From: Anaerolineae bacterium
GTDB lineage: Bacteria; Chloroflexota; Anaerolineae; Anaerolineales; Anaerolineaceae
Reading direction: 5' to 3'
Assembly (NCBI GenBank): GCA_013178095.1
Contig: JABLXK010000001.1
Span: 62,001 to 126,000 of the forward strand
DNA: 64,000 nt
Below the pieces are notes generated by a model, which worked only from the letters and a program-made list of their open reading frames with translations, was not told the DNA's origin and searched no databases. How positions within the stretch are numbered: position 1 is the stretch's first letter; each line of letters begins with the position of its first letter. Positions 19,772-24,211 of the stretch are shown piece after piece. The position numbers and the translations under genes are program-made.

Positions 19772-20437
19772 ATGGCTGAACAAGTGTCGGAACGGCGGGA
19801 ATTGGGTGAATTCAATCGCATTGCCATGCGCGGTGTTGGCAAGATGTTCATTAACCAGGGCAAGGAACAATCGGTTGTGATTGAAGGCGACAAAATCGGT
19901 GTGAGCCGTATTTCCACCAATGTATCGGATGGCAGGCTGGTGATCGATATCGGCCGTGATTGGGTGGAAAAGATCAGCGCGGGCTTTGATTTTATTTCCA
20001 ATGATATCCTCATCAAGATCACTTTGAAAGACCTGCGGGAACTGGAAGTGACCGGAGCGGCGGATATCGAAGTGGGCGAGATTAAAACCGATGCGCTGGA
20101 GTTGAAATTGATCGGCGCTTCCAATTTAAAGGTAACAGAACTGAAAGCCGACAGCCTGAAAACCGAGATCCCCGGGGCAGGCAAAGTGCAGGTTGAAGGA
20201 AAGGTCAAAGACCAATCTGTGACTTTAGCCGGCGCGGGCAATTTCAGCGGCTATAAGCTGGAATCGGAAACCGCCAAGGTAGTTTTAAGCGGTGTTGGCA
20301 GCGCCCAGTTGTGGGTGAAGAAAGAGCTGGATGCAACCATCGCCGGTGTGGGCAGCGTGGAATATTATGGTAATCCGACCATCAAACAAAGCGTGGCAAT
20401 GCTGGGAAAAATTACTTGCCTGGGTGATCCAAAATAG
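19772..20437 (+). CDS. DUF2807 (head GIN domain) beta-helix protein
   Basis: A 221-residue protein with the repeated beta pattern of DUF2807. Successive segments read LRELEVTGAADIEVGEI, LELKLIGASNLKVTEL and VTLAGAGNFSG, then VVLSGVGSAQL. Such domains form a right-handed beta-prism or helix and are often surface exposed, but no signal peptide is visible here, so location is uncertain. It starts with GAGGAG ten bases upstream. Confidence 0.8.
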   Translation: MAEQVSERRELGEFNRIAMRGVGKMFINQGKEQSVVIEGDKIGVSRISTNVSDGRLVIDIGRDWVEKISAGFDFISNDILIKITLKDLRELEVTGAADIEVGEIKTDALELKLIGASNLKVTELKADSLKTEIPGAGKVQVEGKVKDQSVTLAGAGNFSGYKLESETAKVVLSGVGSAQLWVKKELDATIAGVGSVEYYGNPTIKQSVAMLGKITCLGDPK

Positions 20438-20467: not shown

Positions 20468-20497
20468 TTGACAAGATTGAATTCAGTATAGTAAACT
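20468..20497 (+). promoter_or_regulatory. promoter of magnesium leader element 1
   Basis: TTGACA at 20468-20473 and TAAACT at 20492-20497 are spaced by 18 bases. The same layout (TTGAC[AG], 18, TA[AC]ACT) precedes leader element 2, giving a 16-17-base 5' untranslated region in both. Confidence 0.6.
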
Positions 20498-20520: not shown

Positions 20521-20616
20521 ATGAAGGAAGAAAACAACCTTGATTTAGATCCTGACCCTCAAAGTAATACTTTGTGGGTTAGCAAACATGCAATCTTCGG
20601 AGGTTATTGCCGTTAA
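20521..20616 (+). CDS. acidic/proline leader peptide 1 (31 aa) of the MgtE-N/NRAMP operon
   Basis: A 31-residue open frame beginning MKEENNLDLDPDPQS and ending IFGGYCR. It aligns with the second leader peptide at 23314 in M-x-EEN-x-[LI]-DLDPDP-x-S and in the GG near the end. Conservation at protein level in two places, both just ahead of magnesium-transport genes, supports translation. The acid-plus-proline N-terminus resembles the EPDP stretch of E. coli MgtL, which loosens the translating ribosome at low Mg2+. An in-frame ATG at 20509 could add four residues, but the distance to the promoter and the second copy favour 20521. No strong Shine-Dalgarno is visible. Confidence 0.75.
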   Translation: MKEENNLDLDPDPQSNTLWVSKHAIFGGYCR

Positions 20617-20633: not shown

Positions 20634-20647
20634 TCTGTAACCCTCAG
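20632..20647 (+). promoter_or_regulatory. conserved block GGTCTGYAACCCTCRG, copy 1
   Basis: Sixteen bases shared with 23432-23447 with two transitions. It lies between the stop-codon hairpin and the terminator and forms the left terminator arm. Confidence 0.75.
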
Positions 20648-20684
20648 TGCGTGTTTGTTAATTCACACTGAGGGTTTCGTATTT
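20639..20684 (+). terminator. attenuator-like terminator ahead of the MgtE-N gene
   Basis: An 11-bp perfect stem, AACCCTCAGTG (20639-20649) / CACTGAGGGTT (20666-20676), is followed by a broken T-tract. It lies between the leader peptide and the AAGGAGG of the first structural gene. Confidence 0.7.
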
Positions 20685-20712
20685 AAAAAATCAGAGACTG
20701 AAGGAGGTAGGC

Positions 20713-21972
20713 ATGATCTACATCAGCACGGTTATCGATCAAAAAGTTTGGGATATCTGGGGGAATTCGATCGGCAAGTGTAAAGACATCGTTATTGGTC
20801 ATGATGATAGAGTCTTCCCGTTGATTACGGCCATCAGCGTGCAAAAGGAAGACGGGTCTACAATCTTGATCAAGGCCAGTCAAATCAGCAGTCTCTTCCC
20901 CAGTATTACCTTGAAAGTACCAGCTGAGGACATTGCGATTTACGAACCAGTCGGGAATGAATTGTACCTGCGGCACCAGATCCTCGATCACCAGATTGTC
21001 GATGTGGAAGGCAAACGGGTGGTGCGGGTGAACGATATCCAGATCGCTTTTTCCAAAGATAACTATGTGGTCACCGGGGTGGACATCAGCAACCTGGGCT
21101 TATTACGCCGCCTGGGATTGGAAAAAACAGCCATGCGCGTATCACGCGTGGTGAACAGACCGCTCAATAAAGGCGTGATTGCCTGGAAGGACGTGGCTTA
21201 TGTCCAAGCCAAGGATCCGCTGCGATTGAATAAATCGCAGGAAAAAATCAGCAAATTACCGCCGGCGGACATTGCCATGATTTTGAATGACCTCGACCGG
21301 GTTACCACCCAGAAATTGATCGAGGAGATGGATAACGAAGTGGTGGCGGACGCCCTGGAAGAAAGCCCCTCCAAGACCCAGATCGAAGTACTTTCCAGCC
21401 TTGAATCGGAACGCGCGGCGGACATCCTGGAAGAAATGGATCCCGACGAGGCGGCTGACTTGCTGGCGGATCTGCCCAAGGAAACCAGCGCTGAATTGCT
21501 GGGTTTAATGGAGAGCGACGAAGCGGATGACGTCCGGAAACTGCTGCATTACCCGCCGGAATCGGCTGGCGGTATCATGACCACTGATTACGGCTGGATC
21601 CTCAACGGGCTGAAAGTTGGCGAGGCTATTGAATTTTTACGTTCTTCCGAAGATGCGCAGGAAGTCGAGGACATGTATTACATTTACGTCCTGGATAAGA
21701 AAGAAAACCTGATGGGCGTCATCTACCTGCGCGACCTGGTGATGGCATCGCCGCAGGAATTAGTCGATACCCTGATGGATCACGATCCGGTTTATGTCGA
21801 ACCAATGACCCCTCAGGATGAGGTGGCTTACCTGATTGCCAAATATAATCTCCTCTCAATCCCAGTACTAAAAGAAGGGACAAGGACAATGCTTGGAATC
21901 GTGACTTTGGACGATGCAATTGATTCCGTATTGCCAACTGCATATAAAAAACGATTACCGCGTTTCTTCTAA
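20713..21972 (+). CDS. MgtE N-domain/CBS regulatory protein without membrane domain
   Basis: A 419-residue soluble protein. Residues about 1-180 look like two PRC-barrel-like segments (VWDIWGNSIGKCKDIVIG; DVEGKRVVRVNDIQI). Residues about 185-290 match the MgtE intracellular N-domain, with alternating acidic helices (ADILEEMDPDEAADLLADLP). A pair of CBS motifs runs from about 290 to 410. The five-helix Mg2+ channel of true MgtE is missing. In MgtE the N and CBS domains sense cytoplasmic Mg2+ and close the channel. Here they would regulate the NRAMP-like transporter encoded 20 bases downstream. AAGGAGG lies five bases before the ATG. Confidence 0.85.
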   Translation: MIYISTVIDQKVWDIWGNSIGKCKDIVIGHDDRVFPLITAISVQKEDGSTILIKASQISSLFPSITLKVPAEDIAIYEPVGNELYLRHQILDHQIVDVEGKRVVRVNDIQIAFSKDNYVVTGVDISNLGLLRRLGLEKTAMRVSRVVNRPLNKGVIAWKDVAYVQAKDPLRLNKSQEKISKLPPADIAMILNDLDRVTTQKLIEEMDNEVVADALEESPSKTQIEVLSSLESERAADILEEMDPDEAADLLADLPKETSAELLGLMESDEADDVRKLLHYPPESAGGIMTTDYGWILNGLKVGEAIEFLRSSEDAQEVEDMYYIYVLDKKENLMGVIYLRDLVMASPQELVDTLMDHDPVYVEPMTPQDEVAYLIAKYNLLSIPVLKEGTRTMLGIVTLDDAIDSVLPTAYKKRLPRFF

Positions 21973-21992
21973 AACAATATGAGGTTATTGCA

Positions 21993-23237
21993 ATGAGCAA
22001 CATCAAAAAGAAGAATTTGTTCCAGAGAATCTGGTTATTTTTAGCAGTGCTGGGTCCTGGTCTGATTACAGCCTCGGCGGATAACGATGCGCCTGGTATC
22101 GCCACCTATTCCATGGCCGGATCTTTTTATGGATACCGTTTTCTATGGTTGATTCTGGTGATCACATTCGGCGAAGTGATCATCCAGGAAATGGCTGCCA
22201 GGATGGGGGCGGTGACCGGCAAAGGAACCGCTGACTTGATCCGTGAAAGATATGGAGTCAAGATCACATTTTTCGCCATGATTTGCCTGTTGATAGCAAA
22301 CCTGGGTACTACGATTGCCCAATTTGCAGGAATTGCAGCCGGCGGGGAGTTGATCGGTATTAACCGTTATATCTTCATCCCGATCATCTCAATTTTGCTG
22401 ATCTTTATGGCCTTGAAAGGCAATTATAAATATATGGAAAAAGTATTGCTGGTACTTTGCCTGGCTGCCCTGAGTTATGTGATCACGGCTATCATGATCA
22501 AACCGGATATTAAAGATATTCTGAAAAATACTTTTGAACCCAGTTTTACATTTAACCGGCAATATCTGCTGGCCATGCTGGCTACCATTGGTACTACCAT
22601 CACCCCCTGGGGAATTTTTTATATGCAAGCTTCGGTTGTGGACAAGGGCGTAACAGTTGAAGATTATCCCCTCACTCGAGCGGACGTGATGTTCGGTTCG
22701 GTATGGGGAAACCTGATCTCGGCGTTCATTATCATCTGCACGGCTGCGACGCTCTATTCTTCCGGCGTGCGGGTTGAAGAAGCCGGGCAAGCCGCTCTGG
22801 CACTGGCGCCATTGGCGGGTGAATGGGCGACCATCCTGTTTGCCATTGGTTTATTGGGCGCTTCCATCCTGGCTTCCACCGTGCTCCCTTTATCTACGGT
22901 GTATGCGATCACCGAGGCTTTTGGTTGGGAGCGGGGGCTGGACCAGCGCCGTGAAGATGCCCCGGTATTTTACGGATTGTTCATTGGCTTGATCCTGGTC
23001 AGCTCGTTATTTGTCATGATCCCCGGACTACCATTGTTCCAGATTATGTGGTTGTCGCAATCGGTGAATGCCATCCTGCTTCCGATTCTATTAATACTGC
23101 TTTTAAAATTAGCAAATAACAAGGAAATCATGGGCGCATATTCCAACACCAAATTTCAGAATTATTTTGCTATGGCGTTGACCGTGTTGATTGTTGTGAT
23201 CACTTTTGCTCTCTTTGTTCTATCGGCGATACCTTAA
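21993..23237 (+). CDS. NRAMP-family divalent metal transporter with non-canonical metal site (probable Mg2+)
   Basis: A 414-residue protein with about 11 transmembrane helices and the NRAMP fold. Helix 1 reads GPGLITASADNDAPGIATYS, where classical NRAMPs have a DPGN motif. Helix 6 reads TTITPWGIFYMQAS, where Mn/Fe transporters have MPHN. The metal-selective methionine and the histidine are therefore absent. Loss of that methionine is known from NRAMP-related magnesium transporters. Together with the MgtE-N/CBS partner and the leader element, this points to Mg2+ import rather than Mn or Fe. It is in an operon with the gene before it. Confidence 0.85.
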   Translation: MSNIKKKNLFQRIWLFLAVLGPGLITASADNDAPGIATYSMAGSFYGYRFLWLILVITFGEVIIQEMAARMGAVTGKGTADLIRERYGVKITFFAMICLLIANLGTTIAQFAGIAAGGELIGINRYIFIPIISILLIFMALKGNYKYMEKVLLVLCLAALSYVITAIMIKPDIKDILKNTFEPSFTFNRQYLLAMLATIGTTITPWGIFYMQASVVDKGVTVEDYPLTRADVMFGSVWGNLISAFIIICTAATLYSSGVRVEEAGQAALALAPLAGEWATILFAIGLLGASILASTVLPLSTVYAITEAFGWERGLDQRREDAPVFYGLFIGLILVSSLFVMIPGLPLFQIMWLSQSVNAILLPILLILLLKLANNKEIMGAYSNTKFQNYFAMALTVLIVVITFALFVLSAIP

Positions 23238-23261: not shown

Positions 23262-23291
23262 TTGACGCACTGATTGATAAAGGTGTACACT
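23262..23291 (+). promoter_or_regulatory. promoter of magnesium leader element 2
   Basis: TTGACG at 23262-23267 and TACACT at 23286-23291 are 18 bases apart, matching the layout before leader 1. It lies 24 bases after the NRAMP stop. Confidence 0.65.
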
Positions 23292-23313: not shown

Positions 23314-23412
23314 ATGAACGAAGAAAACGCAATCGATTTGGACCCTGACCCTAAAAGCAGCCCGGTTCTGTGTCCTGTTGATATTGCCCATTCGGGAGGC
23401 GCAATGATTTAA
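23314..23412 (+). CDS. acidic/proline leader peptide 2 (32 aa) ahead of the corA-like gene
   Basis: A 32-residue open frame beginning MNEENAIDLDPDPKS and ending HSGGAMI. AGGA at 23300-23303 is a suitable ribosome-binding site ten bases before the ATG. The N-terminal 15 residues match leader peptide 1 at 11 positions, while the middle has diverged. That is what selection on the nascent-peptide sequence would give. The predicted role is a Mg2+-dependent translation sensor controlling the downstream gene. Confidence 0.75.
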   Translation: MNEENAIDLDPDPKSSPVLCPVDIAHSGGAMI

Positions 23413-23431: not shown

Positions 23432-23447
23432 GGTCTGCAACCCTCGG
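23432..23447 (+). promoter_or_regulatory. conserved block GGTCTGYAACCCTCRG, copy 2
   Basis: Second copy of the block at 20632-20647, in the same place between stop-codon hairpin and terminator. Confidence 0.75.
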
Positions 23448-23478
23448 CAATCTTCACAGGATACGGCCGGGGGTTTTT
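23439..23478 (+). terminator. attenuator-like terminator ahead of the corA-like gene
   Basis: A 10-bp stem, AACCCTCGGC (23439-23448) / GCCGGGGGTT (23466-23475), has one G-T pair. Its 3' arm runs into TTTTT (23474-23478). The corA-like ribosome-binding site lies 30 bases further on. Confidence 0.8.
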
Positions 23479-23521: not shown

Positions 23522-24211
23522 ATGTTCAAAATATTAAAGACCACAGAAAACAACCTGACGGTTATTCCCGGCGTGGTAGAAGGCGCCTGGGTGCACGTTG
23601 TGAATCCCACACCGGAGGAATTCGAAAAAACCTATGGGTTGGGAATTCCCCAAAAATTCATCACTGCTCCCCTGGATTTGAATGAAAAACCGCACATCGA
23701 GCAGCAAGCCGGTTCGACCCTGATTTTGCTGCGGATGCCGTATTACCGTGCAGGGGTAGACGCACATTATGCCACCATCCCGTTGGGTATCATTTTGTGC
23801 AATGGGTTTGTCATCACTGTTACCCGCTGCCATAATCCTCTATTGGAAATGGAAGAGAAAAAGAACCGGCCATTTTCAACCGACCGGCGCAACCGGTTTA
23901 TTGTGCAAATCATCACGGCAGTGGTCAATGATTGCGTTTCCGCTGTGCAATTGCTCGGCCGAAAAATTAAGGAGGGCAGGACGATTCAACCAGGAGTCGA
24001 GGGCGAAAATACCGCCGCTGATTTTAAAATTTTCCTGGATGACCTGGGGCAGTTGTTGAAAGCGATGTCAGGCAACCAACAAGTTTTTGATGAGATGCGG
24101 CGCATGAAATTCTTTCAGATCCATTCCGAAGAATCCGTTGATTTCAGCGACCTCTTATCAATGAACCAACACTTCCTTGAAACCGGTTTACGATTGACGC
24201 GCGAAGGCTAA
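23522..24211 (+). pseudogene. CorA-like magnesium transporter lacking the membrane domain
   Basis: A 229-residue protein matching the cytoplasmic funnel of CorA. It has a beta-alpha N-domain (WVHVVNPTPEEFEKTYGL, then ITAPLDLNEKPHIE), an ITVTRCHNPLLEM strand, then the long stalk helix to about residue 215. It stops (LRLTREG) just where the pore helix and the YGMN loop should begin. Neither of the other plus-strand frames downstream encodes transmembrane helices before the convergent kinase gene. Either it is a 3'-truncated gene or a soluble remnant reused as a regulator. Start ATG 23522 has TTGGAGG eight bases upstream. Confidence 0.72.

Follow-up and report, generated by a model that had tools for sequence, protein, structure and literature searches.

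An NRMT-type magnesium importer operon in an Anaerolineae bacterium and its putative translated Mg2+-sensing leader

Organization of the locus

The window, that is, the whole stretch of 64,000 nucleotides that was analyzed, carries two plus-strand genes separated by 20 nt, located exactly where the preliminary description placed them, which encode a protein of 419 aa with MgtE_N and CBS domains (gene 1) and a protein of 414 aa belonging by sequence to the NRAMP-related Mg2+ transporters, or NRMTs (gene 2). The pair is preceded by a leader with a short open reading frame (ORF), and a homologous leader lies between gene 2 and a CorA-like gene. The features are listed below, with the evidence for each in parentheses.

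20468-20497, plus strand: promoter-like site TTGACA-18-TAAACT in the leader of the MgtE_N-NRMT operon (consensus scan; genus alignment)
20521-20616, plus strand: leader ORF, 31 aa, MKEENNLDLDPDPQSNTLWVSKHAIFGGYCR (homologs at 23314 in the window, in three congeneric genomes and in a second genus)
20542-20559, plus strand: acidic/proline codons for DLDPDP (motif counts in the window and in family genomes)
20554-20592, plus strand: part of the leader ORF, predicted to act as antiterminator strand by pairing with the loop and 3' arm of the terminator (full-leader minimum-energy fold, z=-4.4)
20639-20676, plus strand: hairpin resembling an intrinsic terminator, AACCCTCAGTG...CACTGAGGGTT, with a weak U tract behind it (11-bp helix; covariation)
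20713-21972, plus strand: gene 1, soluble PRC-barrel/MgtE_N/CBS protein, putative Mg2+ sensor partner (Pfam; AlphaFold model compared with MgtE cytosolic domains)
21993-23237, plus strand: gene 2, NRMT (match to EleNRMT, PDB 7qia; tree; DxxG-TxxT site)
23262-23291, plus strand: second leader's promoter-like site, TTGACG-18-TACACT (consensus scan; genus alignment)
23314-23412, plus strand: second leader ORF, 32 aa, MNEENAIDLDPDPKSSPVLCPVDIAHSGGAMI (homology, alignment, folds)
23439-23475, plus strand: second terminator hairpin AACCCTCGGC...GCCGGGGGTT, then TTTTT (folds, terminator scan, covariation)
23522-24211, plus strand: CorA-like gene, 229 aa from its likely start, short of the membrane/GMN part (Pfam CorA, E=2e-10; alignment of relatives)

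Both leaders have a sigma-70-like promoter, an ORF that begins with MKEENNLDLDPDP or MNEENAIDLDPDP and runs for 31 or 32 codons, a GGAGG block near the end of the ORF and a GC-rich hairpin followed by T residues. The TTGAC block and a -10-like ACT block line up in five genus-level leaders located before NRMT and CorA genes. Shine-Dalgarno sequences ahead of the ORFs are weak, as is the U tract at 20677-20688, and the hairpin at 20639 fails a criterion of five T in seven. Just upstream of the operon is a gene for a DUF2807 (head GIN domain) protein (19772-20437); in the genome G002, the sequence ahead of the leader encodes a similar peptide end (LGKITSLGDPK), and this neighborhood seems to be kept within the genus.

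The transporter and its soluble partner

Gene 2 matched the Nramp family in Pfam (E=1.2e-94), and its best solved relative was the Mg2+ transporter EleNRMT (PDB 7qia) with 354 bits, the next Nramp scoring 94. In a tree of 43 proteins, which lacks the NrmT sequences of C. acetobutylicum and Acidobacterium capsulatum, gene 2 grouped with EleNRMT and with genes lying behind M-box riboswitches, and all seven canonical Nramps were found across a branch of support 100, as the preliminary description had supposed when it set this protein apart from the Mn/Fe Nramps. That description had also pointed to the motifs DNDAPG in helix 1 and TPWG in helix 6; the motifs are indeed there, and the alignment now sets their register, the metal site being D32-x-x-G35 (DAPG) and T201-x-x-T204 (TTIT, then PWG), so that DxxG-TxxT replaces the DxxN-AxxM of canonical Nramps. 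A DxxG-TxxA/T site defines the NRMTs according to Ramanadane et al. 2022 (PMC8806188). The tree and the metal-site motif rule out a canonical Mn/Fe NRAMP, and by sequence membership gene 2 is an NRMT; the genome has no second Nramp. Membership in this group leaves some room for the reading that the protein carries Mn2+ and not Mg2+ despite its MgtE-like partner, for which the A. capsulatum relative offers a precedent (PMC4072509). We consider this quite improbable, since the site has the DxxG-TxxT form found in Mg2+ NRMTs (PMC8806188), the same leader serves a CorA gene and the genome is without a full MgtE.

Gene 1 was confirmed by Pfam as an MgtE_N (E=2.2e-24) plus CBS (E=6.9e-12) protein with no membrane part, as first described, although an N-terminal PRC-barrel had been overlooked: PRC was matched at the N terminus of nine of nine family members with a best E of 2.8e-07, the window protein itself reaching only 0.0024. 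The MgtE channel domain (PF01769) was absent from the protein in the Pfam search and from the rest of the genome. An AlphaFold model built with 43 sequences had a mean pLDDT of 85.5 and a pTM of 0.53, the latter leaving the arrangement of the domains unsure, and it matched solved MgtE channels at E about 1e-20, the match being confined to their cytosolic parts and covering residues 172-406 of the window protein. Alignment mapping placed acidic residues at the positions of Thermus MgtE E59, D91, D95, D247 and D250 in nine of nine relatives, while the D226 position was mostly Asn, so that five of the six sensor positions checked are acidic; the roles of these residues are described in PMC5882242. 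As modeled and aligned, gene 1 thus matches the cytosolic Mg2+ sensor fold of MgtE, with its N domain, CBS pair and acidic bridging residues.

Two further observations concern this gene family. After the second CBS domain, a tail PTA(Y/W)KKRLPR (window 21934-21969) hardly varies among the nine nearest relatives and is less well kept in more distant ones; it sits where MgtE has its plug helix, has low pLDDT when modeled alone and is a candidate contact with the NRMT. In addition, the MgtE_N gene lies in two reading frames in L215/L216 (genome G105) and at L098:3696-4899, splits that may be real or sequencing errors and that resemble the one reported for C. acetobutylicum.

The pairing of the two genes is widely conserved. 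A MgtE_N gene adjoined the NRMT gene in all eight NRMT-bearing relatives checked and none of six canonical Nramp genes, and it was adjacent in most of 80 NRMT loci spanning Chloroflexota, Nitrospirota, Omnitrophota, Myxococcota and Actinomycetota; where it was not, the locus mostly lay at a contig end. This conservation of adjacency rules out a chance neighborhood. The arrangement has in fact been reported: according to Shin et al. 2014 (PMC4072509), most NrmT-group genes adjoin a gene for the N-terminal cytoplasmic domain of MgtE, and feedback regulation by this fragment is proposed. Therefore, the two-component magnesium importer suggested in the preliminary description is sound as a hypothesis, and the NRMT identity on which it drew is upheld by motif and phylogeny, but the idea is not new. 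The window pair is a known kind of bacterial Mg2+ importer with a detached MgtE-type sensor partner. It resembles the published NRMT/NrmT operons in transporter clade, DxxG-TxxA/T site and adjacent MgtE-fragment gene, and differs from them in an N-terminal PRC-barrel region of the partner, which the consulted parts of PMC4072509 and PMC8806188 do not mention for theirs, and in having a leader ORF and terminator but no M-box, where the Mg2+-specific NrmT members tested in 2014 are tied to M-box riboswitches. The protein pair represents a new lineage for a known arrangement, in which the gating role remains putative.

That role may be larger than a supplement to transcriptional control. The feedback inhibition of the NRMT proposed in 2014 would have the soluble MgtE_N-CBS protein bind the transporter and gate it at high cytosolic Mg2+, and this could be the main control, with the leader secondary. 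The near-invariable gene pairing across phyla, the acidic Mg2+-site residues retained in the partner and the C-terminal tail that Chloroflexota relatives conserve where MgtE has its plug helix all point in this direction; however, in the one published functional test, made with the A. capsulatum pair, co-expression of the partner brought no effect or benefit and the transporter carried Mn2+, and NRMTs function without the partner (PMC4072509). We put gating as the main control at slightly below an even chance. It does not compete with control by the leader, as both can hold.

Distribution of the leader

The leader motif occurs twice in the window, where 0.08 occurrences were expected, and its exact form is found at only these two places in the genome, so that two homologous leaders within one window precede two unrelated types of Mg2+ transporter gene. 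These leader elements lie outside the positions covered by the preliminary description, which missed them, and are more surprising than the gene pair itself. The CorA-like product (23522-24211), aligned with full-length relatives, was missing the two membrane helices and the GMN motif, as the ORF ends first; the gene retains its own promoter, leader ORF and terminator and is either a decaying gene or one encoding a soluble CorA domain. In G001 and L032, a full-length relative is found immediately ahead of MgtE_N. The same leader was found before MgtE_N-NRMT in G002, before a CorA gene just upstream of MgtE_N-NRMT in G001, and before a CorA gene in G003, where a full MgtE gene follows shortly downstream.

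A scan of 147 family genomes with the coding motif gave 13 matches, compared with three for a reversed-pattern control. Seven of the 13 are leaders, five in the genus of the window and two before CorA in a second genus, and all seven lie ahead of Mg2+ transporter genes. Read individually, the matches in G086, G087, G014, G021 and G146 and one of the two in G138 fell in other reading frames and were set aside as chance matches.

In a blind scan of 15 loci plus the window, a strict leader rule was satisfied by nine of 16 NRMT operons and by none of 53 unrelated genes (p=2e-7), the latter count being zero because four initial matches, once read, belonged to CorA or MgtE_N genes whose start had been called differently; the remaining seven NRMT operons fail the rule. 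Within the order, such a leader is the exception for CorA and MgtE genes: it was present before four of 25 CorA genes, three of them from one genus, and four of 30 MgtE genes; the other CorA type showed no enrichment (1/24). Enrichment for MgtE and second-type CorA genes was weak (p about 0.01, with non-independent genomes), and neither differed significantly from other genes under a looser first score, so that for these two classes we claim only the individual cases. The first examples influenced how the scoring rules were set, genomes that are related do not count as independent, and start codons are approximate.

Genus g16 provides a second, separate picture. All 28 loci examined have a leader ORF, ending 80 to 96 nt before MgtE_N, and the consensus ME...GSE...DDQPxPAS was matched in 28/28 loci against a shuffle mean of 1.3. 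The exact motif had ten matches in 29 genomes, every one of them before a MgtE_N gene, and the pooled dN/dS was about 0.48, a value obtained from some 30 codons and affected by RNA-structure constraint. Several MgtE genes of full length, from other families within the order, also have comparable ORFs in front of them (for example MSAFADPDSDPLKPG, MNTDLDQPDPSHS and MNTDSPDLDSSKPPPAP), though they form a minority. The acidic/proline content persists across lineages while the leader peptides and RNAs differ. At the level of sequence, these data strongly support the leader as a conserved, presumptive regulatory element before Mg2+ transporters.

Predicted folds and the proposed attenuator

Among seven aligned leaders, the terminator helix of 11 bp had changes on both sides at five of its pairs, and the terminator cells were 94.8% paired, compared with 36-55% when slid by one to three columns. 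When the whole leader is folded, the minimum-energy structure of four of the five genus leaders sequesters the terminator with ORF sequence lying directly behind the DPDP codons, the exception being the leader of G002, which folds as a terminator even when whole; the RNA beyond the stop codon alone folds as a terminator in all five. A constrained consensus fold of the antiterminator over the seven leaders found no shared helix, and the antiterminator is therefore seen per sequence and not as a consensus. The predicted folds have the geometry of a ribosome-controlled attenuator.

Folding of this strength (z=-4.4 and -3.3), with alternative hairpins, could also be that of a riboswitch binding Mg2+ directly, in which the short ORF would be incidental to the fold. 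Outside Chloroflexota, NRMT operons do have M-boxes: the M-box (ykoK, RF00380), which holds the same place before those operons, was found in seven of 16 such loci. The same Rfam search found none in 15 Chloroflexota NRMT loci, the window had no M-box match either, and the leader matched no Rfam family, which disposes of a known riboswitch upstream of the operon. A direct riboswitch is also hard to reconcile with the coding motif being the conserved part in the genus of the window, with the in-frame peptide pattern in 28/28 loci of g16, whose RNA differs, and with genera sharing acidic/proline content but not RNA primary sequence; we regard it as unlikely. Two other RNA elements were noted at the loci: in two Anaerolineae genomes, a fluoride riboswitch that follows the NRMT gene at a distance of a few hundred bases (L035:6714-6782 and L036:6702-6770), and a PyrR binding-site RNA just before MgtE_N but on the opposite (minus) strand in two Smithella genomes (L050:3448-3552 and L054:3451-3553).

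The repeated Asp and Pro codons might instead suggest a classical attenuator that reads an amino acid or its charged tRNA and is unrelated to Mg2+, and Salmonella mgtP does respond to charged tRNA-Pro (PMC8092293). However, every leader instance found precedes a Mg2+ transporter and none an amino-acid gene, and the interchange of Glu and Asp (DLDPDP, DLEPDP, DDQPGP) keeps the charge rather than one tRNA, making such an attenuator highly improbable.

A translated attenuator that senses Mg2+ through the ribosome is better suited to these data. In the MgtL system, completion of the leader results in termination and ribosome drop-off results in read-through. By this analogy, a ribosome would translate the short leader ORF, giving a nascent chain with the DLDPDP acidic/proline stretch early in it. 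With ample Mg2+, the ribosome would reach the stop codon and mask the antiterminator segment of the ORF, the hairpin would form and transcription would stop; at low Mg2+, the acidic/proline nascent chain would destabilize the ribosome, which would depart at or near DPDP and leave the ORF segment free to pair with the terminator loop and 3' arm, so that polymerase could read into the transporter genes. We infer leader translation, its Mg2+ dependence, the drop-off and the direction of control, the sensing mechanism as a whole being a well-founded inference by analogy. In part of genus g16 the leader hairpins have no U tract, so that the output step there either differs or is misread; it may be translational, as for MgtQ (PMC8092293), or our reading of these leaders may be wrong. 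We consider it probable that a translated Mg2+-sensing attenuator sets the expression of this NRMT-type importer of Mg2+ and of the soluble MgtE_N-CBS partner that usually accompanies it.

Comparison with known Mg2+ leaders

The leader is most likely MgtL-like, its sequence pattern being well supported and its function argued by analogy. Like MgtL of enterobacterial mgtA, it has a short ORF before a Mg2+ transporter gene, with alternative RNA folds downstream, and an acidic/proline motif near the N terminus, EPDP in MgtL and DLDPDP in the window leaders. Ribosomes drop off at the EPDP of MgtL in low Mg2+ (PMC11282234), and intrinsic ribosome destabilization by MgtL was reported by Chadani et al. 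2017, as cited in PMC11282234. Unlike MgtL, which works via a Rho-dependent terminator, the window leaders have an intrinsic-terminator-like hairpin; they also belong to another phylum, precede other transporters, show no overall sequence similarity to MgtL and are common to several transporter types. MgtQ of Salmonella mgtCBR (PMC8092293) is likewise a short ORF with acidic codons, accompanied by alternative stem-loops and followed by a Mg2+ transporter, but it lies inside its operon and frees a ribosome-binding site for translation, whereas the window leaders are located at the 5' end of the operon and end in a terminator. Those g16 leaders that are without a U tract could be nearer MgtQ.

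Implications for Mg2+ sensing in Anaerolineae

The open-access literature, to which our search was confined, contained no report of such leaders in Chloroflexota, and a putative switch combining an acidic leader with a terminator is apparently undescribed in this phylum. On balance, and by a modest margin, we favor the view that in this Anaerolineae lineage acidic/proline leaders may act as a general sensor of low Mg2+ through ribosome destabilization, common to NRMT, CorA and, in some families, MgtE genes, replacing the M-box and independent of enterobacterial MgtL. Where a genome has no M-box, the leader serves as a marker of Mg2+ transporters, and it bears on the distinction between Mg2+ and Mn2+ transport among NRMT-group proteins. 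Since the peptides and RNAs vary in sequence but retain their acidic/proline content, the loci constitute natural variants for the features of nascent chains that destabilize ribosomes. If this view is true, the use of the ribosome's own Mg2+ dependence as a sensor would not be an enterobacterial curiosity, but would have evolved independently in a phylum far removed from the enterobacteria, where it is linked with an intrinsic terminator and common to unrelated transporters.
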